This document shows positions 1-64,000 of a stretch of DNA of 64,000 nt, in pieces. The number at the start of each line of letters is the position of its first letter. The stretch's first letter is position 1. The DNA is from Albifimbria verrucaria (Eukaryota; Ascomycota; Sordariomycetes; Hypocreales; Stachybotryaceae). Location: contig JAHREC010000018.1 of the NCBI GenBank assembly GCA_020081605.1, positions 4,960,001-5,024,000 of the forward strand, in the 5' to 3' direction. The notes below the pieces were generated by a model, which saw only the letters and a list, made by a program, of their open reading frames with translations, had not been told where the DNA came from and ran no database searches. A program made the translations under genes and the position numbers.

Positions 1-1
1 A

Positions 2-515
2 CACCACGCCCAACTCTACGCACTGAACCGAGACGAGATGTCGGTAGCCTCAGGAGTTGGCTATGTCATTTCCAAGGAATTCCCACCAAAGAAAGTTCTT
101 CTTGGCATCCCCGTCTACGGCAGAAGCTTCCTCCAAGCCGCTGGGCCTGGACAGAGCTTCGAAGGCGGGGGCGGGGAAGGCGGAACCTTCGCGTACAACG
201 AGCTTCCACGGCCCGGGTGCAAGGAGATTGTGGACAAGAGGCACATTGCTGCACAGTGTGTTGGCGGCGACGGGGCTTTGTGACATACGACAATCCCGAG
301 ACGGTGGGAGCCAAAGCTGCATTCTGCAAGCAAAAGGGGTTAGGGGTGAGTGGCCATTACCCACGACAAGGCCAGGCAGCATGCGGGTGCCAAGGGTCTG
401 GTGATGCTAACGAGGATGCGCGCAGGGTCTCGTCTACTGGAACGGTCCAGCCGATGCCAGGGATACGTCCAGAAGCCTGATTGCAGCCGGGTTTCGGGTT
501 CTACATTCATGCTAA
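2..515 (+). CDS. GH18 chitinase, C-terminal part (start lies before the window)
   Basis: Hydrolyses beta-1,4 linkages of chitin; probably secreted, but the N-terminus and the catalytic DxxDxDxE motif lie outside the window. Visible are late TIM-barrel motifs of family 18: VLLGIPVYGRSF, AAGPGQSF, GTFAYNEL, then GFVTYDNPETV and, after an intron, GLVYWNGPADARD. The intron is 346-425 (GTGAGT donor, CTAAC branch at about 407, GCAG acceptor). The stop is TAA 513-515, directly after the fold, so no chitin-binding tail follows. The frame breaks at 272-275: GGDG runs into a stop at 281, but adding one G to the GGGG run joins GGDG to GFVTYDNP. This matches the single-base losses seen across the window, so a sequence error is more likely than a pseudogene. 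Family assignment is firm; the subgroup is not determined. Confidence 0.85.
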
Positions 516-1989
516 GAGACAAAAATGCATAGAGAAGGAGGAGGGGGCATGGCCGGTTCGGAACCCGGGCTGTGCCTGGACCGAAAGTTGGAACGAACCG
601 TGGAAGCATGGAATCTGAACGAGCCGTGTTGCTGATGCTTGATCGAATATATGTGCTCCGGATAAATCCAATGCACAATGCCCGTATCGAACGACAGTAA
701 GAATGTGGGGGTTACATTGTGATCATGACGCTTGGACAGAAAAAAAGGACAGAGAACAGGCTTCCATGATATCTGCGGTTGATAGAGTCTTGGATAGATC
801 GGTCGGCGTATACTGAATTATTATTTGTTTTACTTCGTACAAAACCTTGTCTTTGCTTGTGGCTCGTTCCAAATTGGAGCTTTCACAACATGATATAATA
901 ATATCTTGATACGTTTTTCTACACATCACTCGATGGCAGGACAGGATCGCCTGCCCTCCCTCCCTCCCTTTCATCTCAACACCCTCTTGGCCATGCTGCA
1001 TTGCCTGCAACACATATCCTTAATTTCAAGCGGGGAATCCCAAGACACAAGACCTATGCGAGCGATGAAGGGAGGGGGCCAGGGAGCCACAGTGGGGGAG
1101 GAAGAAGGCGGCCCTTCAACAGGGGCGGGCCGGGGCCCGTGAACCAGGCGAACAGCACATCAGCTACTGTCTTGGGCTAAACACGCAGATGTGAGACCTG
1201 CGAGCTGCCTGCACGATGACAGAAGACGACTCACGGCGGCGGAGGCAGAGGCCAATTCGAGGAACCTTTCGCCCGGGCTGGCTCCGTCTGTGCTGTGCCT
1301 CTGCGCGGCTTGGAGAAGAGCCTCCGCTTTTTCCTCCCACTTACATCTGGATCCCTGCGGTCACTCGTGCATGTAGGTGTGGGTGGTTCGCATTACTGTA
1401 GCATACGGTTTCGTCTCCCACTTGGCTTCGACGAAAGGCTTCCGGGGTTGTGTAAAACGTCTGCGTAATACTTCCTTCCTTTCGTCACGTGACGCCTTGA
1501 AATCCTACAAGTGGCTTTTCCCATCGCCGGGGAGGAAGAAAACAAGAATCTCGTCGTGGGATGCCCACGACATGGGAGTCGACGGTGGACGTAGGAGTCA
1601 GTCAGCACGTTCCAATAAAGGTGCCTGGTTTAATGGAAGGGGGCAGCTTTTTACCTTGATAGACATAAATTAAGGTACCTTGTCAGGCACGCGTTCACGT
1701 GGCGATAAGATAAGGCACCTACCCATCCATCGTCATCAGCTGCGCTGCGCTGCGCTGTAAGCGTCCCCAAAGCTCAACATCCCATCGCAGCCTGGAGTTT
1801 TCGAGGCGCAGGGTATCGCTTTGAGAACAGAGTCGGCTCCTCCCGAGGCATCAAAGTGCCGGCGCCCAACCCACACTCTCCTGTTTCGACCGTCCCCGCT
1901 ACAGTCAAAGATGCCATTTGCACAGCCATTGCCGTCCTTGCCATTTCTAGCTTCCATAGCCCGCTCGCTCGCCGTCACTCGTCAGTATC
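516..1989. other. Intergenic region, no gene seen
   Basis: Lies between the chitinase 3' end and the next + strand gene, so it should hold the chitinase terminator and the downstream promoter. Short CCCT runs near 955-970 and a GCTGCGCTGCGCTGCGCTG stretch near 1739-1757 are the only low-complexity pieces. No protein similarity or RNA gene was recognised. Confidence 0.6.
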
Positions 1990-2844: not shown

Positions 2845-3794
2845 TGCGCAAGTTTTGGATGCCTCCATCATACCCTCCAGAATCCGCCACAATCTTCTTC
2901 CATTGGCATTGCATGCAGTCACGCTTGCTATTTTACTAAACATTGCATACTATTTGCATCACGCAACCCAGCGTCTCTCCAACCCAGAGACACTACCGAG
3001 CCGACGAGCTCGCACCAATATTCCTCACCATCTCAAACTCGTCCCAGATCTGTTTGTCAGGATATTTTTCGTTTTCTATCTGTTGGGTGCATCAGACACC
3101 ATTTCAAAAGGGAAAGAGGGCATGTATGGCGTTCCGGGGTTATCAAGGACAACCACTCTTCTCGATGGTAGATTCCGGCGTTATTATGTAGAATTATATA
3201 TATACTCATATCACGATTCCACGACATTGAAAACTGCTACTACGGTGTCTTCTGTGTATTTTTGGCATTGTAACCTGTAGCCATTGGATAAGCATGTCAA
3301 TTTTCACCATGAAAGCCCAATGAATGAACATAAAAACTGTTATTAAAAGATGGTACTCAACGCCCCTGATGCTAGAAACTCCTAAGAGTAGTATGACTGC
3401 AGTAAAACACCCGACGGAAACCAGCTCCCATTAGAAAGTCAACGCCGCGTGAGCGACTAGGAGTTTGCAAGAAAACAGATGACATGCTGAACAAAAAAAC
3501 GCAACCGGATGGAAGAGAACCGACAGGTCATGCTCTATGACCCCGTCTTTCCTGGTATATCATGCATCCCCTTGCGTATGTTGGACCCTCAAAAGTCGAT
3601 GCGCAATCTCCTCGGTTCGGCGCGGTTTGAGTAAGTAACTGGCTTCCCCTTAAAATCACAGGCACCCAAGCCTGCTGACCTATCTTCTTCCGTTGGTCCT
3701 TCTGTATAATGTGCTTGGGGCAACCGGCGCCTCCATTTTATATATCCAAACTTTTCTTCTCCGCTACTCGTAACTGGTAGGCTGAAAAAGCCCT
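2845..3794. other. Convergent intergenic region, no gene seen
   Basis: Lies between the 3' ends of the + strand unknown gene and the - strand t-SNARE gene. It is AT-richer than the flanks and should hold both 3' UTRs and polyadenylation signals. No further gene was recognised. Confidence 0.6.
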
Positions 3795-5113
3795 TTACCT
3801 GGGCATCTCAGGAAGATGGTTGTGGAAGCGGGCGAGACGAGTAAGCTGTGGGACTCGCTCGCCTTCGATAGCACGCACCACAACATTGTTGACATTGTCG
3901 AGAACGGGGAGAGCGAGTCTCTCGATAAGGTCGCGCTTGTTGTTGTTGGCGGGCGCGGGCTTATCAATGACGAACTTCCAGATAAGAATGACAATGACGA
4001 TGATGGCAATGATAACGACTGTTTCCAAGTTAGCAATTTCTCCACGAGTGAAAGCGACAAGGGCCACGAACCGCAGATACCAAGGCACCACCACTTCTTT
4101 CGGCGCGTAGCACGGGCCGTGGTGACGGCCACGCCAATCTCCTCGTTACCCTTGTCCAGGTTCTCAACGACCTCCTCGCCCTTCTGTTCGATCTGCATGA
4201 TGGTGGCCTCCTGCTGCACAACCAGGGTGTCCATGTCCTGGAAGAGTTGAGCAAGCTCAACCATCTGCTGCTCAATCTTGACGAGGGCAGCGTGGCGGTC
4301 CTGAACGGCGCTCAAGGCGGCACGGGCGCGACCTTGGCGGTCACTCTGCATCAGAGCCTGGCTGAAGACCTGGTTGTTGCTGGTATCCTCGACAGCAGCG
4401 CGAACCTCGGACTCGGTGGCATCCGGGCGGACAATGCGGTATTGGCGGGCCATTTGGTCCTGGGTACGCTTGCGGAACTGAGACTCAACCTGCTGGTAGC
4501 CCTGGATGGCCTGCTTGAGACGTCGGTCAACACGGCTGACCTGGGGCTTGTTCTTGGCCGAGTTCGCCTCGGGGTTGGACTTGACGGTGCGGACGCGGTC
4601 GGTGAGGGTTCGGTAAAGAGCCATGGTGTCTGTGGAGAGAGAGTCGAGCTGGCGGTTGGCCACGCTCGAGGAAGAGGTATCGGCATCATCGAGAGTACGC
4701 TGCTGGAGCATACGAAGCTGCTCAAGGTTGCGCTCGACCTCGTCAATGCCTCGGTCAATGTCACGGCACTCATTGAGGATGGCGTTGGGGTCGCCGCCGC
4801 CCATAGAGCCGGCATTCTGTGCTAGCGGTGCCATTTCGACATTGTTGCCTGGGGATTTGGCGTTAGTCGGTGTGCGCCTTCGGGTGGTATTTTTGACACA
4901 TTGGGAACTCACCACCGTAGTTATCGTAACCTTGGTTGTTGTATGCGTTGTTGCCGTAGGAAGGCTGGGGCTGGCCGTAACCGCCGGGAGCAGCATCCCG
5001 CTGGTCAAAGGGTTCTGTCCGCCGTAACTATCACAATGGCATTGTTAGTGGGACAATGTCGCAGGCGTCGTGCGGTGATGAGGCTGGACTAACCCGTACT
5101 GTTGTTGCGCCAT
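3795..5113 (-). CDS. sso1: Sso1-type plasma-membrane t-SNARE (syntaxin)
   Basis: Qa-SNARE that pairs with SNAP-25-like and synaptobrevin partners to fuse secretory vesicles with the plasma membrane. Four exons: 5113-5094, 5027-4913, 4848-4081 and 4018-3795; introns have GTTAGT/TAG, GTGAGT/CAG and GTATCT/ACAG ends. Order: short Gln/Asn/Tyr-rich N-terminus (MAQQQYG, NPFDQRD), syntaxin Habc region (NAILNECRDIDRGIDEVERN), SNARE motif with zero-layer Gln in ELAQLFQDMD, juxtamembrane RRKKWWCL, then the membrane anchor VVIIAIIVIVILIWKFVI encoded by the last exon. The frame breaks at 5010-5012 (GGG on +): one missing base between QN and PFDQRD. With it restored, the product is 375 residues. Odd: 56 residues follow the anchor, whereas tail-anchored SNAREs usually end there. 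Confidence 0.9.
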
Positions 5114-7161: not shown

Positions 7162-8248
7162 TCACAGCACTGCGTATGCGGAGACGTAGCTGACACTGAA
7201 ATCGGCAGGTTTCTGTACCAAATTGCTCCGGTCATACTTGATAATGCTGAAGCGTGGAGTTTTCGCCTCTTCGCTGTCGTCTGATGCTTCCGCCTCGTCG
7301 TTAGCGGGGACGGACGGGTCACGAGCGAGCTCCTGGCGTAAACCTCCATAGCTGCCATGGCAACTCCAATTGGATGCCGTCCACAAACAGTGTTCTTGGT
7401 AAGTCTAAGGTTCCTGACGAATGCCGCATGGCTGCCGCTCTTTACGGCGTCCATGGCTGCCTCATCAATCATCCGGATTGTTTCATGGATCAGGGCGCCT
7501 TGGGGGACCGGATCGTACTGTGACAGTGATTTGAGACGATTAATGTTAAGATCAGAAGAGTATGGCGTGTAGGAGAAGCTGTCGTCTCCCCAATGGCAGA
7601 AATCGGAGCTGATGATGAAGGCGTTCTCGGGATCCTTGAGGTAAGGAGCCAGAACGCGTCCAACTTCTTGCTCGCCTTCCAGTCCGTGACTTCCCACAAG
7701 GATGGGTATAATTTTGGGAACTTGTCCTCGGAGTCAAAGGCACGCTCACACATCTTGTAGAGATATGGCATGTGCATCTCCAGCGAGTGTTCCGAGACCT
7801 CGTATTTTCTGATCATGTTCTCCATGTCTCCTTCCTCCTTGAGCTTGTTGGTCGTCTCTGTATCGACGACGAGATTGCCGAACGGCGTCGCGTATTCGGA
7901 ATAAACGGATACGGCACAAGTATCGAGGTAGTATTTGTGAGAAGGACCCAGTATAAAGACTCGCTTGGCTTTGCTGAGGTCAAGACAGCTGTAAGCCCAC
8001 GCTGCACAAGCCCCGGAGTATCCATAGCCGGCATGGCTGCCACGATGGATGCATCAGCAACACGTCAGACCTTTGGTTCACAGGAACTCAACTCACGGCG
8101 CAATGATGATGCGAGCTCCTGGGATGGGCAGTGCTGATCCATCGATGGTCTCGGGCACCATGCCCAGATATTTCTCGAGTTGCGCCTCCAACTCCTCTGG
8201 GTCGCCTGAGTACCAAGACCCTGCGTGGGATGCTGGACGGATAGCCAT
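7162..8248 (-). CDS. MEMO1-family protein
   Basis: Member of the MEMO family, built like class III non-haem iron dioxygenases; in animals it affects cell motility signalling and copper/redox balance, and the fungal role is less clear. Exons 8248-8097 and 8036-7162, split by a 60-base intron (GTGAGT/GCAG). Hallmarks in order: N-terminal RPASHAGSWYSG, PHAGYGYSG formed across the splice, SEHSLEMHMPYLY, ILVGSH, SSDFCHWGD, CGRHPIGV and the C-terminal SVSYVSAYA. The His of HAGYGYSG, the DFCHWGD His and the CGRHP Cys correspond to the metal-site residues of the family. Two frame breaks, at 7704-7706 and about 7337, each need one added base; the restored length is 342 residues, usual for the family. 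The start is the ATG just before IRPASHAGSW. Confidence 0.88.
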
Positions 8249-11220: not shown

Positions 11221-11992
11221 GATACCCACAAGCTCTTAAATTGTGTGAGCCCTCAAACAAGACATATACGATGTCTTTCTTACAGTAGTATAATATGTCG
11301 CTATTTCACAAAAGAATGCAAGAAGAAATCTTTTGGAGACGTGGAGGGTTTCCTTCGGAGAGAAAGCCATCCTCAGCCTTAGGCTACACAGCCTCCTGTC
11401 CATCTTGATGATCTGGGCCATTCCTGGCTCTGTTACACTACAAACCAACACCATGTAGGATCCGCTGAATGGCAAGGCGGCGCTTCGTTGCAGATGCTGC
11501 ATTGGGCGGTACTGCAACACATCCGATTCGCCAGACAGGGTGGAAGCGCGCCGTATGACCACCATGTGTGGATCGCGTCGGGAAAGTGGAAAATTCAGCA
11601 GATGTTCTGTGCATGTTTTGAAACAGTCAAGTAGCCTTGACTTTGTTCGGAGGAAGGTAGGTCATGTCCAGTGTTTGAGATGCATCAGACAGACAAGAGC
11701 CTATATGATGAAGGGAAGTATACAGGAATATGTGGGGCGATGGGATGCTTTAATGGTAACGGTCAGCACGACAGTCCAACTTATACTTGAAACTAGTTAT
11801 GGGCTGCGAGTAACGATGAGTGATAGTAGTCGAGTGTTTATTTCTTTCTCTTAACTATGTATGTGCTCCTGGTACATATATTCAATTGGCTTGCAACAAG
11901 TGCAATCAGTAAGTTCATCGTGTACATGAGATTGAAAGATACAAAGATGCTCAAGAATCCAAATATGATTCGTAACGAAGAGTATTCTAGCC
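11221..11992. other. Intergenic region, no gene seen
   Basis: Upstream of the PigL_N-type gene and downstream of the kelch gene, both on the - strand. Short frames only, without motifs. Confidence 0.5.
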
Positions 11993-13023
11993 TTACTGTG
12001 TAGGCCGGTAAGCATTGAAGACATCGACCGGGCTGCCTCCTTGGAGAATGCCTCCTCCGGGTATAAAGACTTGCTTTCCTACTGCGACAGCCGCAGTCCC
12101 ATGTCGGGGAACAGCCATCGGCGGAAGCCTCTTCCATGAGTCCGTCTTTGTGTCGTAAACTTCGGTCTCGTTGAAAACGCCTTGAGAACCCTCTGCCGGA
12201 TTGCCTTCGCCTCCAAATGTGTATACTAGTCTGCCGATGGTACCGGCGGCGAGCCCGCCTCTTGCAGTAGGTAACCTTCCATGCTTTGTCTTCCACCCCT
12301 TCTTCAGGTTCTTGAGATCCAAGGCGAATACAGTGTCCCTGACGTTGTGCTGTCCACGGTTTCTGCCACCAAGGATGTAGAAGGTATCTTCGATGACTGC
12401 GCCAGCAGCGTGGTCTCTGCCTTCAGGGATATGAGCCGCTGCCTTGGGGACATTGACCCAGGTATCGGATGCAGTGTTGTATGCCAGTACAGTGTTGACT
12501 GTGTCTTGCTCACCACCAGGGCGTGGGAATAATGTGCGCATTCCGCCAGCCAAGAAAACAAGGTCACCGTGCACGGCCATCGTTGCACTGCCTCTTTCTT
12601 TGCCGTTGGGAATAGGCTTCACCGGAGTCCAGACGTCCGTAGCTGGGTCATAGACCCATGAGTTTGGAATAGCCCTCCAGGCTCCATCAGGAGAATCGGC
12701 GAGTCCACCGAGAAGGTAGATTTTTCCATTGACGACGGCGGCATTGGGATGGTTTAACGCAATGGGTGCCGGAGCGGCAGAGGACCAGGAATTAGAAGGT
12801 ATGTCGTAGAGCTGGACCAAAGCGGTGGTGTTGAATTGTTCGCCGCTAGGGACTACGCCTCCAATGATGGCCAGTTGCTTGTCAGAGATGGCAACAGTTG
12901 CATGCTCTTGTCGAGGAGCGATGGCGATGGGAGCCAAAGTCTTCCAAGCTCCACGGCCCTGGGGGAGCAGGCAGTGAGACTTGCCCACCCAGCGGTGAGG
13001 AGAACTGTTCGAAGGCTGATCAT
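11993..13023 (-). CDS. Secreted kelch-repeat protein
   Basis: Beta-propeller protein, probably exported; ligand or substrate unknown. The start ATG at 13023 gives MISLRTVLLTAGWASLTACS, a typical signal peptide that the downstream frame alone would miss. Kelch blades show the GG-x(n)-Y/W-x-W pattern: AIIGGVVPSG with NSWSSAAP, YLLGGLADSP with DVWTPVKPIP, VFLAGGMRT with DTWVNVPKA, YILGGRNRG, YTFGGEGNP with DSWKRLPPM, and VFIPGGGI, about six blades. It lacks the radical-Tyr/Cys signatures that would make it a galactose oxidase. One break at 12961-12965 (GGGGG on +) joins the signal peptide to GRGAWKTLAPI when one base is added; the result is 343 residues. Confidence 0.85.
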
Positions 13024-14642: not shown

Positions 14643-16533
14643 ATGGCGTGGTCCAAGAGCACCCGTATCCAGGTCATGATTGCCATCGACACGGCTTTCT
14701 TCCTTCTCGAGTTGATCAGCGGCTTCCTCGTCCACTCTCTTGCCCTCACCGCCGATGCTTTTCACATGGTACGCCCCGCTGCGCTCCTGCTAACTCTCTT
14801 GAAACCCAAGCTGACACATGCTTTGCCTTAGCTCAACGACATCATTTCCCTGGTTATTGGCTTGTGGGCTGTCGTTGCTGCGCAGAAGGCTACCACCGAC
14901 CAGTTTACCTTTGGCGTATGTCCTCCCATTTCCTGCAATCGCCGCTCCGGACGCGACTAACATTCTACCAGTGGGTACGAGCCGAAATTCTGGGCGCATT
15001 CTTCAATGCAGTCTTCCTCATCGCCCTTTGCGTTTCCATCATCCTCGAAGCCCTGACTCGTTTTGTCGAACCGCCTGAAATTACCAACCCTAAGCTTATT
15101 CTGATCGTCGGTTCCGCCGGTCTGTTCTCCAACCTTGTTGGCTTCTTCGTCCTTGGAGGGCACGGTCACGGCCACAGCCACGGAGACGACGACCATGATC
15201 ATGACCATTCCCATGATCACATCCATGCTGCGGAGGAGGGTCGCGTCGACAGGTCTATCCACACCGAGGTAGCGGACGAGGACGGTGCTGTCGCAGATAT
15301 CCTCCCTGAAGTTATTGTCCGGAGGGCTACCCGCGTTGCCGATGGATCCTCTTCTGACAGCCCGGAAACTCGCCGAATCCGCTTCAATAATGATAGCCCC
15401 GCCCGCGAGCCGTCGATTCCTGCCAACAGTCGCATCGCTGCCCATTCCAGAGATCGCGGCCGTCGCCGGTCCAGTAGGAGCGGACACTCGCGCTTGGCCA
15501 GTATTGATGATATGAGCATCCACCCGGCCAGTTTCAGACAGGACATTATTGCCGTCAGTCTTGCCGCCTCCTCTTCCGGTGCCGAACCCACCAGCGCCAG
15601 CGACACTGAAGACGATTCTCCTCTGGCGGGTGGAGACGAGGCTAATGAAGAGTCCCCTCTGCTCAAGGATGCCAAGGGCACCAATGGAACTATGCACGGC
15701 TCTAACGGCGCATCCCATCTATCCGTGGGACGACGACCCCGTCGCGATTCCAGTGTTCACGATGGCCACCACCACACCTTCCCCGAAAGCCAAACAAGGG
15801 TGGTCACAGCCACAACCACGCCGACATGGGCATGAATGCTATGGTTCTTCACGTCATCGGAGACGCCTTAGGAAATGTTGGTGTCATCGTCACTGCTCTT
15901 GTCATCTGGCTCACCGATCTTCCGGGCAAATACTATGCCGATCCTATCGTTTCGCTTTTCATCACCCTCATCATCCTAAAGACTTCTATTCCGCTCACTC
16001 TCGCTACATCTCGAGTCTTGCTACAGGCTACCCCTGAGAACATCAGTGTACAAGAAATTCGCCAGGACATCGAAAGGCTGCCCGGTGTTGTTAGCTGCCA
16101 TCATATCCACGTCTGGCAGCTCTCCGACACCAAGGTCGTTGCCAGCATGCATCTCCAAGTATCCTTCCCCATCAACTCACACAGCGGAGAGAAGTACATG
16201 CAGCTCGCCAAGCGTGCCAGGAAGTGTCTACATGGCTTCGGTATTCACAGTGCTACTATCCAGCCGGAGTTTTGCTTTGATCAGAAGCACCAGCACGACA
16301 GCGATGCTGCGGCCCTGGCTCTCGACGGTTCCGCGGTCGATGGCACGAACCCTGATACATGCCTCCTCGAGTGTGTCGAAGACTGCGAGGCGCAGGGCTG
16401 CTGCACTGGTATGGATACGACGTCTTCCAAGGATTCGTCGAGCCGACGGTGCAGCCAGTCTTCCCACAGCGACACTAGCGCTCAGCACGATCACGATCAT
16501 GATCATACCCATGATCACACCCACAATCACTAA
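14643..16533 (+). CDS. zrc1: Zrc1/Cot1-type vacuolar zinc transporter (CDF family)
   Basis: Cation-diffusion-facilitator that moves cytosolic Zn2+ (possibly Co2+) into the vacuole in exchange for protons. Exons 14643-14768, 14832-14915 and 14972-16533. TM1-2 start at STRIQVMIAIDTAFFLLELI; the TM2 metal site HMLND is formed across the first splice, and its TM5 partner is HVIGDALGNVG. TM3 and TM4 lie in exon 3. Between TM4 and TM5 is a roughly 220-residue cytosolic loop with a His/Asp cluster (GHGHGHSHGDDDHDHDH), Ser/Arg-rich disorder and a second HHH cluster. The cytosolic C-terminal domain (DIERLPGVVSCHHIHVWQLS) ends with another His-rich tail (HDHDHTHDHTHNH). One base is missing at 15781-15784 (CCCC), between loop and TM5. 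The restored length is 590 residues. Confidence 0.93.
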
Positions 16534-17016: not shown

Positions 17017-19308
17017 TCATTGCTTCGTGTGATAGTCATCAGCCCGAACCATGACCCTTGACGGGCGGTAGCTGTAGCTCATCGCTCCCTTGACTTCAAC
17101 GAAATCCTCCTTACCCTTCCATGAGTATCTTACGAGCAAGACCTTCTCTAGGTCGGGCGCTGGGTCCCAGAATCCAAGGAGGTTGCCCTTGCGAATCCCT
17201 GAGGGATGATGAGGCGACCGTCCCGGTCAACGAGTGCCGCCAGGGCAACGGTCACGTCTGCCACTTCTTCAGACGCCCAGCTACCGTTGTCATCACGAAC
17301 ACCATATTTTGCACTCAGGATGACGAGATTCCCAAGCGATGCATGGCGTTTCTGAAAAGCCTCGACGGGCCCACTAAGGAGTACCAAGATATTGTCTGCC
17401 TGGAGGCGGCGAAGCGCAATGGAAGCTTGCATCAAATGCGGCGGAGTGGGCTCGGGCTTGGATACCCGATGCCAGCGGCGCCATTGCTGTCGCAGGAGCT
17501 CGATAACAGAAAGACCGGCCAGCGGCAGGACACCAGCCCAGAATATAAGACTGGGCGTGGAGAAGACGCTCGGGCAGAACAACACAGGAGGCTGACTCGC
17601 TGGTTGAGGCGGGACCAGTGGATGGATAAGTGTAGACTATGTCGGCTGACACCCACTTCTATACCTGCGGTGGAAAAGCGGCCGACGGGTAAGAGGTTTC
17701 TCAGCGCAAAGTAGCTTCCGTAGAAGGTACTAGAGCATAGTTCTGCTTCGAGCCGGGACGGGCGTTTCCACCCGGGACAAGGCTGGTTGTTGAGCACAAA
17801 GTCCTGGTTGTACCGTAGATAACCTGCCGTGGATGCCACACTTGCAGTAGCAGATACGGCCCAGGAACCTCGCTTAAGCAAACCTGGTAGATTGCTGTCG
17901 TACGTATTCGTCGGCTCACTCGCTGCCTCGCTGATAAAAACAGTGTCCGTGGTGAAACCCACTTCAACAGCCGGAGCTGCCGTAGCGACAGGGGCCCATT
18001 GTAGGAGTTTCCGACCCGATGTGATCAAGTTGCTCAATTGGCCTCCTGCGATAGAAGAGAGCCATTGGCCGCTGTCACCACGGACGAAGACCGTGCCACT
18101 TGAGAGCTCGTGGTGAACACCAGTGGAGACTCTAGGGAGGTAGCTGGCCCCAAGTGGAGGGCTTTCGACCGTAACGTCCAGGGTTGTAGGTCCAGAGGCT
18201 CCGGGGAGAAGCACAGGCTGTGTGAGCTGAGCGGTGAGAATGCCTGCGGCTCCGGCTGCCGGCTGTTGGGGTCCTGTGAAGGACGAGCTGTCTGGGCTCT
18301 TCCATGCCTGTTCGGTGCAGTCCGGGGAAGAGCGGCCTGGGAGCAGAACAAGTGGCCTTGGGAACATGTCCGTGGACAGGCCATGTAGGGAAGTCGTGAT
18401 AGACAGCGTTGGCTTGCCAAGTATGAGCCGTTCGTTCGGTTTGCTCACATCCGTGGCAGTGCCGGTGGCAGCTCCGAAGAGGTTCGGGATATTTCGTTGC
18501 ATAAACCTCTCCAGGGCGGGGAGTCCAACGTGCACCGTGTGACCAACCGTGAATCCCAGGGCCGGCCGGGTATTCGTTGTTGAGGTCGAATGGTCAATAT
18601 CTGTCATAGCTGCGCCAACCGATTTGAACCCCACGCTGAGCTCTGGCGGTGTGGAACTGCTCGAGGAGTATCTCAGGGCGTCCAGGTAAGTATCCTCGTA
18701 TCGTTTTCCCACGCCCGGCTCGGGTTCCCTGACGAGAGTGCGGCATCGTACGCAGCACGGCGTTCCGGATCGACGAGTGTCTCGAACGCTTGCTGCACGT
18801 GCTGGAAGTATTGTCGGGCGAAGGGCTGGAGGTGGTCGGGGTAGCCTTCAGGATAAAGAAGGAGGAATAGGCGGTAGTATGCCTGTCGTATCTGATCCTT
18901 GGTGAGGTCGGCGCCTCGGGGAGGCATAGGATCTCGTAATGGTCCGATTGGCATGGATCCGAGACTCCGTCGTTCTCAATGAATACCAATTCACCTTCCT
19001 CGGGGATGTCATCGAAGGCCAATGTTTTGTCGCCGTTCCGTCGGCCAGGTCGGATGCCTCGGTTACCCTTGAGAAGACGGAGCTCGCATCGTCGTCCCCA
19101 AACTCATACTCCTGCCGGGTTGCCGCGAACTGCTCATTGAGCGAGTAGCGCGACTCCACGGACCGCAGGGAGTGAAAGGCACCAGACAGCTGGCGGTGGT
19201 CGTCGATGAGGGCCGAGGATCTCCGGACAGAGCCGTTCCTCGAGGCATTGCCCGGAGCCCTCAGGCGCGGGATGCGCAAGCTGTTGTTGCGGCTCGAGGG
19301 TCAGCCAT
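17017..19308 (-). CDS. DNAJC11-like protein with degenerate J domain
   Basis: Resembles DNAJC11 (mitochondrial outer-membrane/MICOS-associated J protein with a C-terminal DUF3395-like domain); the fungal role is inferred. Single exon, start MADPRA followed by NNSLRIPRLRAPG. Domains: disordered N-terminus; J domain at about residues 120-190 (DHYEILCLP, LTKDQIRQAYYRLFLLLYPE, AFETLVDPERRAAYD); a long middle part likely to form beta structure (YEDTYLDALRYS, LRLEAELCSSTFYGSYFALRN, HLSIHWSRLNQRV); a hydrophobic segment (PSLIFWAGVLPLAGLSVIEL); C-terminal LVILSAKYG, WASEEVADVTVALAALV, LLGFWDPAP. The HPD tripeptide needed to stimulate Hsp70 reads YPE. Six one-base losses (about 19291, 19025-19028, 18918-18921, 18708-18710, about 17588, 17186-17188); adding six bases gives 765 codons plus a stop. 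Confidence 0.82.
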
Positions 19309-19900: not shown

Positions 19901-19925
19901 TTTTTTTTTTTTTATTTTTATTTTT
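19901..19925. repeat. Poly-T tract
   Basis: T run of 13 followed by ATTTTTATTTTT. Low complexity only. Confidence 0.8.
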
Positions 19926-20960: not shown

Positions 20961-21007
20961 GCAAGGTAAGGTAAGGCAAGGCAAGGCAAAGCAAAGCAAA
21001 GCAAAGC
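20961..21007. repeat. Pentanucleotide repeat GGTAA/GGCAA/GCAAA
   Basis: Nine or so pentamers drifting from GGTAA through GGCAA to GCAAA, an evolving microsatellite inside the gene-poor block. Confidence 0.85.
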
Positions 21008-30401: not shown

Positions 30402-30426
30402 CTGGCTGGCTGGCTGGCTGGTTGGT
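30402..30426. repeat. Tetranucleotide repeat CTGG
   Basis: Tandem CTGG units passing into GTTGG; simple repeat. Confidence 0.8.
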
Positions 30427-48747: not shown

Positions 48748-51171
48748 ATGATTTATGCGAACCTCCACCAACCGCCTAATTTCTTACGGCCGAGAACAGC
48801 GCCGCCTTTATCCGCTTCTTCAAGTTCCAGCACGCCATCAATGGAGAGACCTCGCCGACGCCGAAGACCGGCATTCTCGTGCCTGGAATGCAGGCGACGA
48901 AAAATTAAGTGCGATCGGAAAGACCCGTGCTCACATTGCCTCTCCGTTGCGATCCAATGCGTGCACAAGACCTTTCGAGATGCGTCCGAGACCTCCAACC
49001 AGCTACAGCCCGTCCAAAGCAGTGCACAGGGCCGGGCGGCAGTCTCCTCATCAGTTGATACCCCGTCTCCCCGTGCCCAAAGCCGACAATCTTGCTCAAA
49101 TAGAATCGTAAATGCAGAGCGCAGAGTGCCGGCCAGGCCTCTCGTCGCCAGAGCGGACATATCACGGCCCACACCAGCACCAACACCCGCGGGGCAAACA
49201 GAAGCCACCACAGCTCAGGCCCCACCAACCACCCGTGTCGAAGATGAGCAGCCAAGTATACATGCTCTTTTACGACGGATACAGCATCTCGAGAATTCTC
49301 TGGCAGCGGGTCCCGTACCTGCGCATTCTGAGCCTGGAGGGAACTTGATTGATCGCCAAACGGTGCATCAAGATACACGGGTCAGCCTTTATAAGACAAG
49401 GACCATAAAATGGAGCTACTGGGTGGGCATGGCTAATGAGGTATGGTCCATAGTCACGTCCTTCTGCTACGTTGCACTGACTTCTACTTCAGTTTGATCT
49501 TATTGTGGCTTGCTATTCCGCGGCTGGCGGCGGCCTCTTTGCTAGCTATGGCGAAGCAGACGACCACGACAAGCCGAACTCCTTCTATGGGCCTGAGATT
49601 GAGCCTCTGCTTGAAGAGATCGAGGATCTCCTGCGCAAATCTAAAGTGTTGGCAAAATGTCTGAAGGCAGGGCGACCAAGCAAGTCACTCGGAGGAGCTG
49701 GCTTTGATCTTCGCCCCCTCCCGCGAGCTGGCAGACACCATGGTCGATCTCTACTGTACTTCTTTCGAGTCGGTGTATCGGATAATTCACGTGCCTTCGT
49801 TTCGTTCCGAGTACCAGAGATACTGGGAAAACCCAGAGAGTGTTACGGCCAGTCAGTGTCTCAAGATCCTCCTGGTAATCGGCATAGGCTCAAGTCTACA
49901 CGACTATGGGAATGCTACCACGGATCTACGACGAAAGGTACAACAATGGATTCATGCTGCTCATGTATGGCTTTCCGGCCCGATGGAAAAGGATCGCCTG
50001 GACGTCAGCGGGCTCCAGGTCTACTGCCTGGTGATCCTTGCACGGCAGATCTTCTCAATCGGTGGCGACCTAGTTTGGGTGTCGATGGGGTCGTTAATTC
50101 GTATGGCCATGCAGATAGGGCTTCATCACGATCCCAAACACCTCCCCGCGATGTCGTTACTACAGGCTGAACTCCGGAGGCGGTTATGGGCTACTGTGCT
50201 CGAAATGGCAGTACAGTCGTCTCTAGACTCGGCGATGCCGCCAATAATCTCCTTAGACCATTTTGATACCGAAGCGCCCTCAAACTACAACGACGATGAG
50301 ATTGATGAGTCGACTATCGAGCTGGTGGCCCATCCGAGGAGCACTTACACCACTTCCTCAGTACAGCTTATCCTCCTCGACTCGATACCGACACGCCTCC
50401 GTATTCTCCAGCTACTTAGCGGCCTTAAAGCGGAGCTATCTTACCAGGACGTCCTTTCACTGACTTCGGAAGTGACTGATTCATATTGCGCATACAGGAA
50501 GTTCGGCCAGGAGAACATCGACTCTGGTATGACCCCATTCCACAGGAATCTGATCGATTATTTCGTACGCCGATTTCTGATCCCCTTACACTGTTTATTT
50601 GCCAGCAAGGCACAGGAGAATCCACTGTTCTACTATTCTCTCAAAGTTAACCTAGACGTTGCTATGGCCATCGTCTTTCCCGAACCAGATGACGGCTTCT
50701 CCCGAATCATGGCTACCGGAGGGGGCTGTTCCGCGAGGGATTCTGGTATGCAACGTCTATCATCGGCCGCGAGATTCTTTCGCAAGTCTCAGTACAGCAT
50801 AGAGAGGGACTCTCTATCGTAATGCCCAGCAGCGAGAGCTTCTCAAACAAGCCGTGAGGAACATGATCTCTTTGGCGGTGGCGAGGATGCACCAAGGCGA
50901 TACCAATGTCAAGATTCATATGTTTCTAAGTATGATAATGGCACAAACCGAAGCTACGGAAGAAGGCGTGACATGTGAGCTCATGATTGCACGGGGAGCA
51001 AGGGATAGCCTTCAGTTATGCCATGATCTGCTGCAGGCACAAGTCGACACTGAGCCCATGCCGTATGATGATGACGCGGGCGTCACTTCTTCAACTTTGA
51101 ACGGGGCGCCGGAAAACTCGCTTTGGGACTTGGACTTGGAATTCTTTCTGCCTGATCTGGGGCTTTCGTAA
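48748..51171 (+). CDS. Zn2Cys6 fungal-specific transcription factor
   Basis: Nuclear DNA-binding regulator. Exons 48748-49440 and 49493-51171 (52-base intron, GTATGG/TCAG). Zinc cluster near the N-terminus: CLECRRRKIKCDRKDPCSHC with the sixth Cys in SVAIQC, preceded by a basic RPRRRRR stretch. A Ser/Pro/Thr-rich linker, a short coiled segment (LLRRIQHLENSL), then the fungal-specific TF domain: LADTMVDLYCTSFESVYRI, RMAMQIGLHHDP, LRRRLWATVLEM. The start may be 48748 or the ATG at 48841 just before the basic stretch. Breaks: two bases lost (or one gained) at about 49690-49705, one base lost at 50721-50725 (GGGGG) and one at 50816-50818. The restored length is about 791 residues. Target genes are unknown; the monooxygenase downstream is the nearest candidate. 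Confidence 0.88.
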
Positions 51172-51606
51172 CATACTAGGCATTCGGGCATGCTGTTATC
51201 CCATGGTTGAGCAGGAGGCCAACAGTAAGCCTGAGGATAGGAACATCAGTAGCATATAGCCAGACCGAGCAACGCAGGACGAAATTATAAATAGAACTTA
51301 AATTAGGCTACCGTAAGTGTCGTTCTTTGCAATATTATTCATGTTTTTCTAATGCGCATATGGGACCGGTTAGGTCCGTTACTATGCGAGTTTGTTACGC
51401 CCGCTCTACTTACAGCCGCTTCAAGACCCCCTATGCTTACGTCCGTCACTAGCTCCGCTCTCGCATACGTCCGTTGACGAGTGTATAAAGAGCACCACAT
51501 CCATAAGGCGTCTCTTGATTGATGGCATTAAGATTCAAAGAATTAAATTGTCAAATGGGAAGGAATCAGTTGTCTCATCCAACGCCCCTACTCATTATTC
51601 TTCCCA
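51172..51606. other. Spacer between regulator and monooxygenase
   Basis: 435 bases holding the terminator side of the regulator and the promoter of the monooxygenase. Confidence 0.5.
51484..51489 (+). promoter_or_regulatory. Candidate TATA box of the monooxygenase gene
   Basis: TATAAA in GTGTATAAAGAGC, about 118 bases before the ATG, a normal spacing for a fungal TATA promoter with a short leader. Confidence 0.45.
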
Positions 51607-52874
51607 ATGCCTCTGAAGATTCTTATCAACGGTGCTGGCATCGCCGGCACAGCCCTCGCCAATTTCCTCGTGCGGTCCAAACAAGGTCACGATATCACTG
51701 TAATTGAGAGAGCATCCAAGTTCCGTACCGGTGGTACCCAGCTTGATTTGAAGTCTTATGGTGCCCCGCTGATGAAGAGGCTGGGACTTATCGATGCAGT
51801 CCAAGCAAGGAGCATACACGAGACAGCTTTCACTTTCGTTGACACGAAAGGCAGAGAGTGGGCAAGATTCAGCGTCAACGAAGCTGGCCAAGGATATAAA
51901 GGAGTGACGAGCGAATATGAGATCATGAGGGCGGACCTGGTAGATGTGTTATATGAAGGGAGCAAAGCGATCGCTACAACAATCTTGGGGAAAGAGTCGC
52001 AGAGGCTGCGGTACTTTTCGGAAAGTACGCGATTCAGCTAACGCAGCTTGAATCCCGGGTCCAGGTTGTGTTCTCAGACGGCTCTTCAGATGAGTACGAT
52101 CTTGTTGTCGGTGCGGATGGCCAGAACTCCCTGACGCGGCGTATGCTATGGGAGCCAAAGAAGGACTGCGATTCCACGCTCAGGGATACGGGCTACTCGG
52201 TTGCATACTTCCACATGCCAAAATCAGAGGAAGAGCTCAATAGTACCTTGTTCAAAAGCTGTCTTTTGCCAGGGCTCAAGGTGCTGTCGCTTCGCTGTGC
52301 GCACAAGGACTTTACACAAGCCATGCTTACGATATCCACTACGGAGGAATTAAAGGAGATGGTTAAACAACCGGTTGAAAAGCAGAAAGACCTATGGGAA
52401 ACGCTATATAAGGATTTCGGATGGGAAAGCAAGCGAGTACTTGCGGAAATGCGGACTACCGATGACTTCTATTCCACCTCGGTTGCTCAGGTCAAAGTGG
52501 ACACATGGTCCAAAGGGCGAGTTGTTCTGCTGGGCGATGCCGGATACTGCCCGAGTCTTTTGACTGGGCTTGGAACCACGACATCACTCGTTGGAGCATA
52601 CGTACTTGCGGGCGAACTCGCAAGACATGAAGACGACGTCGGCGCGGCGCTGGAATCTTATGAAACAGTGCTACGACCGTACGTGGAAAAAGCTCAGCAA
52701 CTTCCTCCTATGAATCACGCCATCTTTCGATCTAAGCTCGCGTTAAACATATCCTACCTTGCCCTAGCAGTTCTGTCAAGGCTTAAGATAGATCGCCTAC
52801 TCAATGTGCTGATGAAGGATGAGAAGGACGCCTGGCAGCTCCCAGAATATCCGGAGCTGGAATTAGAGGAATGA
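51607..52874 (+). CDS. FAD-dependent monooxygenase (PHBH/TetX-like)
   Basis: Group A flavoprotein hydroxylase that would use NAD(P)H and O2 on an aromatic or polyketide-like substrate; the substrate is unknown. Single exon. N-terminal dinucleotide motif ILINGAGIAGTALANFL, ending in the acidic strand IERASKFRTGG; DLVVGADGQNS corresponds to the DG motif, and VVLLGDAGYCPSLLTGLG to the GD motif that contacts the FAD ribose. The C-terminus is helical, ends in ELELEE and carries no clear targeting signal. One base is missing at 52015-52018 (TTTT), joining RLRYF to GKYAIQLTQLE. The restored length is 422 residues. It lies 436 bases after a Zn2Cys6 regulator on the same strand, an arrangement common in small metabolic or detoxification loci. 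Confidence 0.88.
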
Positions 52875-54262: not shown

Positions 54263-57200
54263 ATGGCGACCGTGATCCGAAAAGCGAGCCTTCGCGGCAA
54301 GAGCAAGGCCACTACCCTCGGCCAACCAGGGATAAACGTCGTGTTAGAATCGCGGAAGGGGCACTGAGGCATCTGCTGGGCCGTCTTCTCAGATACCTAA
54401 CAATCAAAACTTCAGAACCAACAACTCTGGGGCAGCACGTTCTGGCACCCCAAGCACGAGTCCCATAGATGCCCCTCATGGAGTGATTCCAGCCACGTCT
54501 CACGGGCAGGGTGGTATCCAAGGCTTCCTCGAGATATCGATACCGGACCAGGCATTCAATCATGACCCAGAAGATGACCAAGCAGGGCCAGCACAAGTAT
54601 CTGGTGGAAAGGCACAGGCTATATCCAAAGCACCTGGCTCTAGAAGTCGTAGCCTCTTAAGCACAAGACCCGGGAAACTTCTCAAAGAGACCTTCTGATA
54701 GCCAAGGATTTTGCTCTATATGAATACATGGGCTGGAAGATTGCGGGCCCCAAGATTCAGCTAAGACGGGCCATGAACTTCCTTGCTGATGAAGATATTG
54801 ATCGAACCCCTGGTTGGGAACGAAAGTGCGCTGCTTTGACGGAGTATTTTTCACACCTTCTTGCAAGTCACAAAGACGAGGATTGGGGGCAGGATCTTGC
54901 AGAGGCCATTCGAATGCTTCGAACACACCGGCTGTTCGAAAGATATCATTACGAGCAGGCACCGCTTTCGCTGGACTTCGTATATCAGGTCCCAGCTCAA
55001 AGCACCAGGCTTCCGCGCCAACCGGGGCCCGATATTGTGCTTAATTTGGGCTATCAAGGGCTATCACAAAGACCTGAAGCCGTTCGTGGCAATGAGGAAC
55101 CAATTGACGACAGAGGTTCGGCGAATAACTCGATTCAAAGAGACTTCGAGACCGAAGATAGCGTCATGGAAGACAGTACAGGGCCTGTAAGCCATCCAAT
55201 TACAAATCAAAGACACCATGCCTCTTCAAGGGTTCAAAAAGCCATTACCAGTTGTTCGATAATTTGCTACGGCCACTTGATGGTAAAAGAGCGACCGCAA
55301 AGCATAGTCTTGAACAGTATGGCAATACTCCAAGTAGTGAGGATATTCCCATTGGCATACCCTGGTGCTTCAGAATGCGCCTGCTCCAGAGAAACCAGAT
55401 GCGGGTATCTTAATATCCATCAAGGCCGTGGAAGAGGTCTCGAAGACGGAATCACAAGACCCACTCAGTTTCGTGCGGTTGCATGAAGAGTACAAGACGA
55501 AAGACCTGGAATGGGCCTTTGAAAATGAAAGACACAGCGATGTAACCAAGGTTGGTCGTCAAGGCGTTCTGATACCCACGACAAACTGGAAGGGGCCCAA
55601 GATACCCAGTCTTGCCACTGAAACTGAGTGTCATATTTTCTATGATCTCAAGCGCTATCGTGGAGTCTATGATGCGCTACAAAGGCAGGCGAAGCGAGCG
55701 CCGCGGCATTTCTTAGTCGAGGTTCTCAGAAACATTGACCTTGGAAAGGCTGGGGAGAAGACGGACGCCCTGGGCCTGCGCTTTCGTGCTTCTGAATTCA
55801 CTTCTAGCAAGAAACAGAAGTTCCTACCCTTGGACACCTATGAGACTCAGATGTTCAATAGTCTCTGCCAACAGTCATATAAGCTGCCTCAGGCGCCAGA
55901 TCAGCCCATAGACGAGAAAGGGAAGATACTCGCTGCGAGGATAGTCAAAATGCTCGCTGACCCAAGTCCGAGCTCGTTCTTTCGCAACAACAAGCGTAGG
56001 TTGATACGCCAGTTTGTTTCCGCTTTGAATGAGGTATGTGGCGGGCCAGTCCTGCAACATGAATTCACAGAAGAAGAAGTCTCTAGCTATCTAGATGCGA
56101 TGACCAAGCTGGGGTTGATTGAGTAAGTAGAGGCATATGTAACCTAGCAGGACACGTTTATGCTAACAAGCACTCCTTAGATCGGCTGTTTCGAAAAGCA
56201 ACACTTGGATTTCGAGACCACACCCAGACATACATCCCGAGGATAGAGCCATTTGGCCCCAATCACTCGCAATGGAGGGCTTGGACATTCCACCCAACAC
56301 TAGGCCGAGGGGACAAACTGAAAGCCTCTCAGGAAATGACCTGACCAGCGATTGTAACACAGCAAGTCATAAAGATCTTCCTTTACTAGGAATCACTAGG
56401 AGCCTCCAAGAATGCGTTCAACAGAAAGCTCACGTAGACAAGTACCGAGGAGAAACAGACAATTTCTTCTATTGTCTCGCCTTTCGCTTCGGTCTAGTCA
56501 TGGGTGCCACCGAAAAGAAGTTGAGAGGCTCGAGAACGATCTCCAGCATCGTGAAGCACGAAAGAGAAAGTCGGAGGAGTTAGATAAGAGCGTGGATGAT
56601 GGATGGAGCAGGCTACAAGCACACCAAGCAGAAAGAGATCGCACATCAGGATCCGAAGCCGAGGCACCCACATACAAAGACGTGGTTGTTGCTGCAGATC
56701 CAGAAAACTACGGTAATATCTGGGGAGCAGACGGCAACCTGCAGGAGTCGCAGCAATCGCAGCAAAAGCAGGTGACCACTGAGGGTCATTGCAGGAAGAT
56801 TGTAGGCCGCAACATAATTCTCGAGGCATACGAGAACCGGACGATGCTTTGGCCGTCAAACTTGCATACTTTCAAAGGCAAGGACGGAAAAGAAGTCAGC
56901 TCATACCGCCGTGAGCCCATCTGGACCTTTGGACATCCATCAGTGCGGAAGACAGCACCACGTTTCTGGAGCCTCGATCGTTGGCCTTTGGAGCTTCAGA
57001 GTATGGAGACACAAAAGAAGATTCGGGCAAGCGGGCCAACGCCACCAGCAGAGCGTGATGAAGAGCGAGCCAAAGCCGGGCACGCAGATGCCTCTGGGAC
57101 CGCCCCTACGGCGAAGATGAAATGTGTATCAGCTATGCCGAGCTCGCTAACCAGAAACGACACTTCCGCCCAGGTCCAGTCCTGTTTCGACGAGGGGACA

Positions 57201-57907: not shown

Positions 57908-58924
57908 TTAGAATCGCTTGCCATCCCTCAGCGTGTCCGCGAACTCCTCCAGGGGACTCCTGATCAGCTTGGTCTCCTTCCACAGGTTGGGGGTCAGGAA
58001 GCCGTAGGTGTTAGACACGGCAACGAAGGTAGCCTTGAGGGTGTTCTCGAGGGTCTTGGTGGAACCGGCAGACGAGGTGTAGGCATCCTCGACACCAGCG
58101 AGCTGGAGGAATCGCTTAACGGCGGGGAGGCAACGAGGCCAGTACCACGGGGAGCGGGGATAAGCTAGGGGCACATGTTAGCTGCGAGTTCGTTTTCATT
58201 GTTTGTCTGGAGACACAAAGGCCCCCGCAGACGGGACGGGGATACATACACGGACGGTGACGGAACCGCACTTGCCGCTCTCCTTGCAGGGCAGGGAGTG
58301 AGGAGCACCCAGGTTGGTACCCCAGTAACCACGACGGACGGGGATGACGCTCAGCTTGGCGATGATGATGGCGGCACGGATGGCAGTGGCGACTTCCTTG
58401 GAGGTCTTGATGCCGAGACCGACGTGGCCCTCAGAGTCACCAATGATGACGATGGCCTTGAATCGGGTGCGCTGACCGGCACGGGTCTGCTTCTGGACGG
58501 GCTTGATCTGTAGTTGGGAATCGAGGTCAGCAACTGTGTCTCTGGGGTTGCGCAATGGCTCGCTCTTCCGCGTTAATTGCGAATCCTCCTCCTCCTCCTC
58601 GGCTTCCCATCGCCTTTCCTCCCATGTCTCAAAATATGCATGGGGTTTTTGAATCCGTACCTTCATGACCTCGTCCTTGAGCTTGGGCAGGAAGTTGTCG
58701 ACGATCTGGTACTCCTTGATGGGCAGAGAGTGCAGGTAGATCTCCTCCATGCTGTTGATCTTGCCGGCCTTAACCAATCGACCGAGCTTGGTAACGGGCT
58801 GCCACTCCTTCTCCTCGGACTTGCCGCCGCGACGACCACGGCCACGGCCACGACCACGACCACGGTCACCACCTCGAGCTCCAAAACCACCACCACGGGT
58901 AGCAGCGCCGCCTCGGTCAGCCAT
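57908..58924 (-). CDS. rps2: 40S ribosomal protein S2 (uS5)
   Basis: Structural protein of the small ribosomal subunit near the mRNA entry and decoding region. Exons 58924-58661, 58507-58250 and 58164-57908; introns of 153 and 85 bases, the first with a GTACGG donor, the second with GTATGT. The N-terminus is an Arg/Gly-rich tract ([14 protein letters not shown]), then [20 protein letters not shown] and [15 protein letters not shown]. The S5 double-stranded-RNA-binding fold follows ([20 protein letters not shown]), then [19 protein letters not shown] and the C-terminal [20 protein letters not shown]. The frame breaks at 58124-58127 (GGGG on +): LVAS must join [13 protein letters not shown] through one added C. 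Restored length 259 residues, normal for the family. This gene is essential and normally single-copy, so the break is almost certainly a sequence error. Confidence 0.96.
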
Positions 58925-59704: not shown

Positions 59705-60771
59705 TTATTCCTTCGACTTCCAGATCAGGTTGTCTGAGGGGCGCACACGTTGGGCCCATTCACTATCATGTAGTTAGCGTCGGTGTCACAGACATTGCGA
59801 GATGATGCGAAACTCACGTCCAGCTACCGTCGTAGACTCTCCTGGCTCCTGGCGGGCCATAACCTGAAATTTCGAGAGCAGTGTCAATGACACATGCAGT
59901 AACACCCGTTCCGCAGCTAGAGATGATGGGCTTGTTGGGATCAACACCCTTCTCCTCAAACACGGCTCGGAGCTTATCGGCGGGGAGGAAGGCCTTGGTG
60001 TCGTTATCCAGAAGAGCATTGAAGGGCAGGCTGATGGCACCCGGCATGTGACCAGACGATAGCCCTCGCGAGGTTCTGGAGCTTCACCTGTGAACCTGGC
60101 GTTTGACCTTGCGTCAAGGATCTGAACACCTTCGGAGCCCTCCTTGTTGTAATCTAGAGCAACCTCCTTCACCTCATCGAAGCTAGCAACCTTGCTCTCC
60201 TCAAGCTCGGGAATTGGGTAGGTGCAGCATTCCACACTGTAAAGCTCACCCGACTCGGTGGGCAATCCTTCGTCAACCCAGAGCTTGAAGTTGTTAAGGA
60301 TGTGGACCTTGGGGTGGCCGAACACTCTTAGCGTCCAAGCAACGCGAGGCGCGCTGAATATGCCCAACTCTTTGGTATCGTATACGACAACAATATCTTC
60401 TTTTCGGATGCCGAGCTCACTCATGGCGCCAGCAAAGCGCTTGGCGTCCGGAAGCATGTGGGGTAAGGGCTCCTCTTGTCGATTGCCTTGTCAATGTCGA
60501 AGAAGCGAGCCTTTGGGATTCGGCGCTCTCGGAACACCTCGATACCGGTGCGGCCATCATTGGGGAGAAACCAAGCGGCGCATAGAGGGATGACGCGGGG
60601 ATCGGTGCTGATGGGAGACGGCGCGTTCTTCTTGAGAGCTTCGTTGAGCTCCTTGGGGGTGACGAGGTATGAGGAGAAGCTTCGGTGGGCCGACATGGTG
60701 GCCAGGAAACTCCTCGAGCCCCAACGGCCGGAGAGAGCGGGTGTTGCGCGGCAGACGGCGATGAAAGCCAT
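59705..60771 (-). CDS. tum1: Two-domain rhodanese, thiosulfate/3-mercaptopyruvate sulfurtransferase (Tum1 type)
   Basis: Transfers sulfane sulfur to acceptors; Tum1 in yeast feeds sulfur into tRNA thiolation, and mitochondrial relatives detoxify cyanide. Exons 60771-59818 and 59762-59705 (55-base intron, GTGAGT/ATAG). The N-terminus (MAFIAVCRATPALSGRWGSR) is Arg-rich and non-acidic, fitting a mitochondrial presequence; a second ATG gives MSAHRSFSSYLV. Domain 1: ARFFDIDKAIDKRSPYPHML, VVVYDTKELGIFSAPRVAWT. Domain 2: VQILDARSNARFTGEAPEPR, SGHMPGAISLPF and the active loop SSCGTGVTAC with its catalytic Cys. The C-terminus is DGSWTEWAQR. Single bases are missing at 60460-60463 (GGGG on +) and 60063-60065 (CCC on +). 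Restored length 337 residues. Confidence 0.92.
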
Positions 60772-62033: not shown

Positions 62034-62572
62034 GGCCGTACACCCAAATCATACAGACACATGTCGATAGAAGCAAATGATCCATATCCACCCGGCAAAC
62101 ATTTTGCTCGGGGAAAAATGTGTTGCCACCCGTTGGTACATTAACTAGGGCAGTATTCTACAGCACAAGGCTTCCGAGAGTCACATTCGCAGTCCTAGGC
62201 GCGTCACGAACATCATACAGTTTTGCAATAGCCCTCGGCTACGAGCTTCGAGGATATGGGCGCCCTCCGCAGAATTGGTCAAGTTCACAGCATTGGGTTG
62301 GCAACTAGCAGAATCTGGCAAGCGACTGACAAAAATATGGGGATAACACACCAGTACGCATCGCTGCGCACATAATCTATATAATTGCCCATAGGCATCC
62401 CCTACACCCTTGTGTATCTTAAACAGAACCCACGAAGGATAAACACTTCTCAAGAAATGTGGAAATACTCTACCCAATAGATGCAATTCTATCACTCATG
62501 AAATGAGAAACAGGGTTAATTAGATATGTACTTGATTTTAATGGGTATTAACATGCTGAAGAAACTGTTCTA
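62034..62572. other. Convergent intergenic region, no gene seen
   Basis: Between the 3' ends of apc11 (+) and chk1 (-). Holds the two 3' UTRs; no motif recognised. Confidence 0.6.
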
Positions 62573-63999
62573 TCATTGTTGATCTGGGATGTACACCCCA
62601 TCTTTGCAAAGCACTACCACCCTCTTGAAGAATCGCCGCCACTCTAGCGGGTCACCCTTGACCTTGACGAACCGCACGTCTAGAATCTCATTTCCATCGG
62701 GCAGAGGCTGCTTATCAATTTGAATTTCTCCATGAAGGCTCTGTTGACGGCCATCGATAGCCTTGACCTTGATGTTGGCAATGTGGTTACTGTAGAGGTT
62801 GGGCGTTACCGGTGCCAAAGGTACGTTGAGCTGATGCAGGGCATCGCTCAGCATTTGTACGAGATGCGCAGGAGGCACGTGAGAGAAGAAGCGTGTGAGT
62901 GACTCGGGCGGGCAGATATCACGGAACCGGCGTGCTTGTTGGGTCAGGGTCATCGAAGGGCCAGGTGTCTGTGAGAACTGGGACATGGAGGGCTCATCGG
63001 CAAGAGCTTCCACGAGCATACGGCGGGCATCATGCCCGCGAGTCGGCATAGACGATGCAGGTGTAACAGTGGATCGGAGAGCTGGGCGTTCCCAATCCCA
63101 GTCCGTATCTGCGATAGGCACCTCTGGCTGGGTGGAGGAATATCGTCCAGCATTCAGGCCGGAATCAATGTCCATGTTGTCGGCCAGGGCAGCTGCACGG
63201 CGCTGCCGCTGAGACAAAGTCATGGGCTGGCTTAGATCAATTCGTAGGTCCTCGAGCATCTGGGTTGCAAGGTGAATGGGATCGGAAACCTTGCCATCGG
63301 GGGTGAGGAGGGGTTGTGACGCGTATACCAGGGATGCTGGCGGACTTGAGCGAAACTGAATCGTTTTTGGGGATCGATACTCATCATTCCGCGCAGAAGT
63401 GATAGCGCCGCTGCTGGTATCCTCTCCCATAACGCATCGGTGCTCCGACCAGATGTGCGGACGTATTCCTCAAACTCCCAGCTGCCTGGCGAGGGCTCAT
63501 CCCATGGAGTATTGCCCACGAGCAGAACGAATAGAATGACTCCGCAAGACCAAATATCGACAAGATCAGGTGAGTACTTGCCTGGGTTGGGTGATTTCTT
63601 ACTCACCCTACCGCACGCAAGAATCTCGGGCGCGATATAGGGAGGGCTGCCACATAGCGTCGAGCTTGTTTTCCGCTGGCCCTTGTACTCGAACATGGTA
63701 GCCATACCGAAATCAGCCAGCTTCAAGCTTCCGTCATGGGACAGCAGGATATTCTCGGGTTTGAGGTCGCGATGGGCAACACCTTTTGAGTGCATGAAGC
63801 TGACTCCGCTCACGAGCTGGACGAAGTAGATTTGTGCAATGTCCTCCCTCACGCCCACATCGGCCTCGATCTTGTCGAACAGATCACCACCCTCTGCGTA
63901 CTCCATGGCAATCCATCGCCAGATGGCATCCTCGCCCGAGGCGAACCACTCGATGATGTTGGGGTGCTGGCCTATGTGAGAATGCAGGGAGACCTCCAT
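62573..63999 (-). CDS. chk1: Checkpoint kinase Chk1 (5' part lies beyond the window)
   Basis: Ser/Thr kinase that halts the cycle after DNA damage or replication stress. The glycine loop and start codon are outside; the window begins at EVSLHSHIGQHPNIIEWF, the alphaC-beta4 region. Catalytic loop VAHRDLKPENILL, Mg-binding LADFGMAT, and APE in GSPPYIAPEIL; DIWSCGVILFVLLVGNTPWD is typical of Chk1. After the kinase domain (HPWYTRHN) comes a linker with DWDWERPAL. The C-terminal regulatory domain has RFFSHVPPAHLVQMLSDAL, NIKVKAIDGRQQ, LDVRFVKVKGDPLEWRRFF and VVLCKDGVYIP, matching the KA1-like domain of fungal Chk1. One base is missing at 63310-63313 (GGGG on +), joining TRHNP to LLTPDGKVSDP. The visible part is 475 residues. 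Confidence 0.9.
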
Positions 64000-64000
64000 G

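Follow-up and report, generated by a model that had tools for sequence, protein, structure and literature searches.

The question raised by this locus of Albifimbria verrucaria is whether the changes of reading frame seen in its conserved genes belong to the fungus itself or to the sequence as it was assembled. The window, that is the whole stretch of 64,000 nucleotides analysed here (C15:4960001-5024000), is part of an assembly of 48.4 Mb in 41 contigs. Contigs of up to 7.3 Mb are among those seen, and the assembly is therefore presumably a long-read one.

The window's proteins point to Hypocreales and the closest named relative among the matches was the hypocrealean Paramyrothecium foliicola, to whose counterpart the kelch protein is 71% identical. 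For the J protein the identity to P. foliicola is 43%, rising to 57% once the aligner follows the frames. Near-identical predicted proteins were also found in other public contigs: those of the kelch fragment (99%) and of the J protein come from contigs of 46,839 bases, while P0123 and P0124, the relatives of the Zn2Cys6 factor and of a hypothetical gene, both come from contigs of 22,372 bases. These equal sizes suggest that the kelch and J relatives lie on one contig and P0123 and P0124 on another.

Single-base losses in six genes of the window

A protein-to-DNA aligner was written for the task; besides whole codons it can use GT-AG introns, residue gaps and the loss or gain of one or two bases. 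In six firm genes it recovered 15 losses of one base and one of two bases, and no gain of a single base, distributed as given in Table 1. When 12 control alignments were made with the protein of one relative on error-free synthetic DNA of another, 5,176 aligned codons yielded two spurious introns and a single spurious frameshift, the latter at 56% identity; the firm frameshifts exceed chance. The direction of the events is one-sided, all 15 single-base events being losses (two-sided p = 6e-5). Their density reaches about 2 per kb, i.e. 16 events in roughly 8-9 kb, a figure that applies to genes picked because breaks had already been seen there.

Table 1. Position, strand and frame changes of the genes compared with homologous proteins
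Gene	Position in the window	Strand	Observation
Syntaxin (SNARE)	3766..5113	-	Undisturbed in the 3' part, which has a 53-base intron; a loss is possible in the first exon
Memo-like	7179..8116	-	Two introns; a less firm frame change at the junction of two Pfam pieces
Kelch-repeat	12001..13002	-	Repeats intact; one doubtful loss at the N-end
Zinc transporter, N-terminal part	14664..15164	+	Frame changes are two introns; no loss needed
J protein	17041..19300	-	Six single-base losses relative to a 758-residue one-frame relative that has DnaJ and DnaJ-like C11 C-terminal domains
Zn2Cys6 / Fungal_trans transcription factor	48841..51169	+	A 52-base intron; one base lost at two sites, two bases at a third
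FAD-dependent monooxygenase	51607..52872	+	One single-base loss, with six of six homologues
Hypothetical, no Pfam domain	54465..56124	+	Three single-base losses relative to a 554-residue one-frame relative
40S ribosomal protein uS5 (RPS2)	57910..58924	-	Two introns, one single-base loss
Rhodanese / TUM1-like sulfurtransferase	59816..60597	-	Two single-base losses, with both references

The reference for the J protein gene was P0121, a predicted protein read in one frame on a 46,839-base public contig, which aligned at 97% identity over 755 residues as 749 whole codons and six one-base losses, with no gap, no intron and no in-frame stop. The P. foliicola J protein (57% identical) gave the same six losses within ten bases, in exact agreement with the number put forward in the preliminary description; the 765 codons that it had given for the mended gene come near the 758 residues of P0121 and do not equal them. 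The Zn2Cys6 gene behaves like the J protein gene when compared with P0123 (97% identity). Its two-base loss, which had also been claimed previously, was recovered with all four references and both of its single losses with three of them (P0123, P0139 and P0150), the exception being P0131, with which the two-base loss and one of the two single losses were accompanied by one gain and one in-frame stop. Six of six references placed the loss of the FAD monooxygenase gene at the same point, one of them adding a second event near the N-end. For the hypothetical gene the reference was P0124 (95% identity, one frame, itself without a Pfam domain), and the uS5 loss was found against the chain of 7r81. 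Three genes (J protein, Zn2Cys6 and hypothetical) thus match one-frame predicted proteins of other public contigs at 95-97% identity.

A mending of the frames within the cell, through programmed ribosomal frameshifting or RNA editing, would fit the breaks themselves and nothing more. Against it, the predicted proteins of the relatives continue in one frame at the same places, six breaks occur in a single gene and no common motif was noticed in their contexts, which were compared by eye only. The probability left to such a mending is practically negligible.

Unrecognised short introns could also change the frame and they are frequent in this genome, 18 of the 41 junctions described below being 47-114 bases in size. 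Moreover, of the frame changes examined in the window, those of the zinc transporter's N-terminal part (two introns) and the one ahead of the final syntaxin exon (one intron) are accounted for by introns in place of losses. However, the aligner was free to place introns and placed none in the J protein, hypothetical and rhodanese genes, nor in the FAD gene with five of six references, and 14 of 16 frame-only junctions overlap or abut in the DNA, leaving no room for an intron. It is therefore highly unlikely that most of the frame changes are introns. The earlier claim of 29 single-base losses across 16 conserved genes is partly confirmed: support was obtained for 15 losses in six genes, but not for the zinc transporter N-terminal part and the frame change ahead of the last syntaxin exon.

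Other genes of the window

The firm count takes in the six genes only; the cyclin, NmrA and N-acetyl-glutamyl-phosphate reductase genes, the NLR/ankyrin gene with the single gain claimed for it earlier, the C-terminal half of the zinc transporter and the rest of the 16 genes of the preliminary description lie outside it, the weak PDB matches of NmrA and of the glutamyl-phosphate reductase having been left out of counting. Three further events were kept apart from it. The loss at the kelch N-end was shown by one of four homologues. That of the first syntaxin exon was shown by two of five, two others falling short of the site and one covering it without a loss. The Memo event was seen with human MEMO1 as sole reference, and is a shift of +2 that equals -1 only modulo three. 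For the kelch gene, the near-identical entry P0018 (11996-12580) sets in as late as residue 154 of the frame read in the window, even though the J protein relative is carried by a contig of equal size; this late start may reflect an artefact of start choice or a break in the contig from which P0018 comes.

Over the aligned length, the Zn2Cys6 factor and the adjoining FAD monooxygenase (48841-52872) are 81-91% identical to proteins that occur as pairs on contigs of equal size in Talaromyces rugulosus (with consecutive locus tags), Penicillium and Clonostachys; in the searched piece the identity reaches 96%. Among the best 120 matches P. foliicola was not named for this pair, and three other genes of the window are 57-82% identical to P. 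foliicola. On these sequence comparisons, the regulator-enzyme pair is a candidate for recent horizontal transfer.

An NLR-type gene (NPHP3_N, GPIID winged helix, ankyrin) at 41090-44965 contains about 14 head-to-tail repeats of 105 bases with an 80% match; on the opposite strand, 10843-11235 gives a SesA-like match that stays under the Pfam cut-off. At the edge of the window, Pfam detects a protein kinase domain (63460-63999), which may resemble checkpoint kinase Chk1, and a further coding-like stretch is present at 62624-63433. Fungal N-acetyl-glutamyl-phosphate reductase genes usually carry both reductase and kinase domains; in the reductase-like gene at 45818-47016, no kinase domain was found in the single frame scanned (45524-46195). 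Between the J protein gene and the cyclin gene, about 15 kb of 54% G+C (19400-34700) gave no segment above threshold on either strand with a simple codon model, which overlooks some true exons too when they are short or broken. At the gathering score, no Rfam match was obtained in the window.

Loss of G and C from identical-base runs

Run lengths were counted in 20 stretches of 10 kb (200 kb) from seven contigs, the expectations being extrapolated from the ratio of shorter runs in the same sample. G/C runs of at least six were absent (0 observed, 64 expected) and runs of five were reduced (105 observed, 200 expected), for 830 runs of four. By the same internal measure A/T runs are barely shortened, with 223 runs of five against 233 expected and 59 of at least six against 82, and they stay on a geometric course up to five. 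The window holds one G/C run of six. It is not special in that it has 0.70 G/C runs of five per kb compared with 0.53 per kb in the sample and shows a median longest open frame per 10 kb of 370 codons compared with 325.

Thirteen of the 15 losses were pinned to intervals, the two rhodanese losses being left out for lack of a close reference. Matched control intervals have a mean longest run of 2.20 bases, whereas that of the pinned intervals is 3.08 (permutation p = 2.5e-4), and 12 of the 13 pinned intervals include Gly or Pro (GGN, CCN) in the reference, whereas 3.9 were expected (p = 5e-6). The missing long G/C runs and the Gly and Pro codons at the pinned losses together indicate that mainly G or C was lost, and the losses fall chiefly on G/C rather than equally on A/T. 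The runs that remain are short, being of at least four bases at only three of the 13 pinned sites and of only two bases at three. The statement that most losses sit in runs such as CCCC, GGGG, AAAA or TTTT is thus borne out insofar as the runs are longer than in controls, but it has to be narrowed, G and C being mainly concerned and A and T hardly, with many runs of only two or three bases.

Breaks in essential families and their origin

Beyond the window, the DNA gap minus three times the residue gap was calculated between neighbouring same-strand hits of five families, i.e. Cpn60/TCP1, Hsp70, class I tRNA synthetase, sugar transporter and RNA polymerase Rpb2, leaving aside a nested Hsp70 row (C10:5394000-5394164) and pairs separated by over 700 bases or sharing at least 25 profile residues. 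Among the resulting 41 junctions, 18 were intron-sized, 16 were frame-only and 7 were large insertions or deletions relative to the profile, two of which (+26 and +17) would also suit a lost base and were kept outside the 16. In 14 of the frame-only junctions one base is lacking, in one two bases are lacking and in one there is an extra base. Those that overlap or abut in the DNA (13 of minus one and the one of minus two) are spread over contigs C4, C8, C10, C15 and C36; the two less firm ones, a minus one on C41 and a plus one on C10, span residue gaps of 15 and 12, respectively. Single-base events were thus losses in 14 of 15 cases, upholding, together with the 15 of 15 in the six genes, the loss bias described earlier. 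CCT, Hsp70 and tRNA synthetase genes are among those affected and one chaperonin subunit carries three losses, so the earlier description is refined in that the losses extend beyond this window. Unbroken long matches also exist, for example an Hsp70 over 571 positions and a chaperonin over 467. Since only 9 of 470 sugar transporter candidates were scored, which favours unbroken copies, the tally of 16 events in 48.3 kb of hits is not a true rate and is not comparable with the 16 events in the 8-9 kb of the window.

The assembled sequence does contain the frame breaks, and real mutation could in principle have made them, either in decaying pseudogenes or in a mutator lineage, e.g. a mismatch-repair deficient one, losing bases from runs; loss of mismatch repair does yield run-associated single-base losses. 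Decay was looked for as in-frame stops, unconstrained substitutions and mixed insertions and deletions, and the three genes with close references show instead 95-97% identity to one-frame relatives, losses only and no in-frame stop. Furthermore, a ribosomal protein, the chaperonin subunit with its three losses, Hsp70s and tRNA synthetases are equally broken, which a living fungus could, we would judge, hardly bear. Real mutation is therefore very improbable, as had been argued before. A further version, in which a run-shortening mutator has truly shortened the G/C runs in the strain's DNA and frequent slippage in translation or transcription rescues the broken essential genes, is scarcely credible.

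Almost certainly, the frame breaks are consensus errors of an insufficiently polished long-read assembly, the cause already proposed in the preliminary description and favoured by the one-frame relatives, the losses in essential families and the missing G/C runs. A long-read consensus with insufficient accurate-read polishing, or none, would call short runs of identical bases, above all of G or C, one base short, and such shortened runs would break the reading frames of the assembled sequence. Such under-calling of G/C runs would explain together the direction of the events, their G/C bias, their spread over contigs and essential families and the one-frame relatives. We infer a sequencing platform of the nanopore type and would expect the runs to be longer in raw or short reads.

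A comparable case is described in PMC7500977 for another hypocrealean fungus, Drechmeria coniospora, whose nanopore-only assemblies had less than one sixth of 305 conserved genes at full length before polishing. There too, according to that account, chromosome-level assemblies had most of these genes broken, mostly by run-length errors, which were fixed with short reads. In contrast, the errors reported there after long-read polishing are more often insertions, whereas losses are all but exclusive in the A. verrucaria assembly. In the Homopolish study, which treats the polishing of nanopore assemblies (PMC8011154), homopolymer indels are likewise described as shifting the frames of protein genes and some polishing steps as increasing deletions, while nanopore drafts are said to hold more insertions than deletions before polishing. 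Given these insertion-rich drafts and the residual errors of D. coniospora, direction alone is no proof of cause. PMC9453082 likewise discusses run-length indels and frameshifts, there in nanopore assemblies of ascomycetes.

Taken together, the frame breaks are a real property of the assembly and very probably an artefact as regards the organism; the artefact is of a known kind and nothing biologically new is involved. Two signs allow a quick test for it without any reads: adjacent protein hits on one strand are offset by one or two bases, and G/C runs longer than five are missing. In the living fungus the genes are very probably intact, and any gene models, counts of pseudogenes, sizes of gene families or tests of selection based on this assembly would be unreliable.
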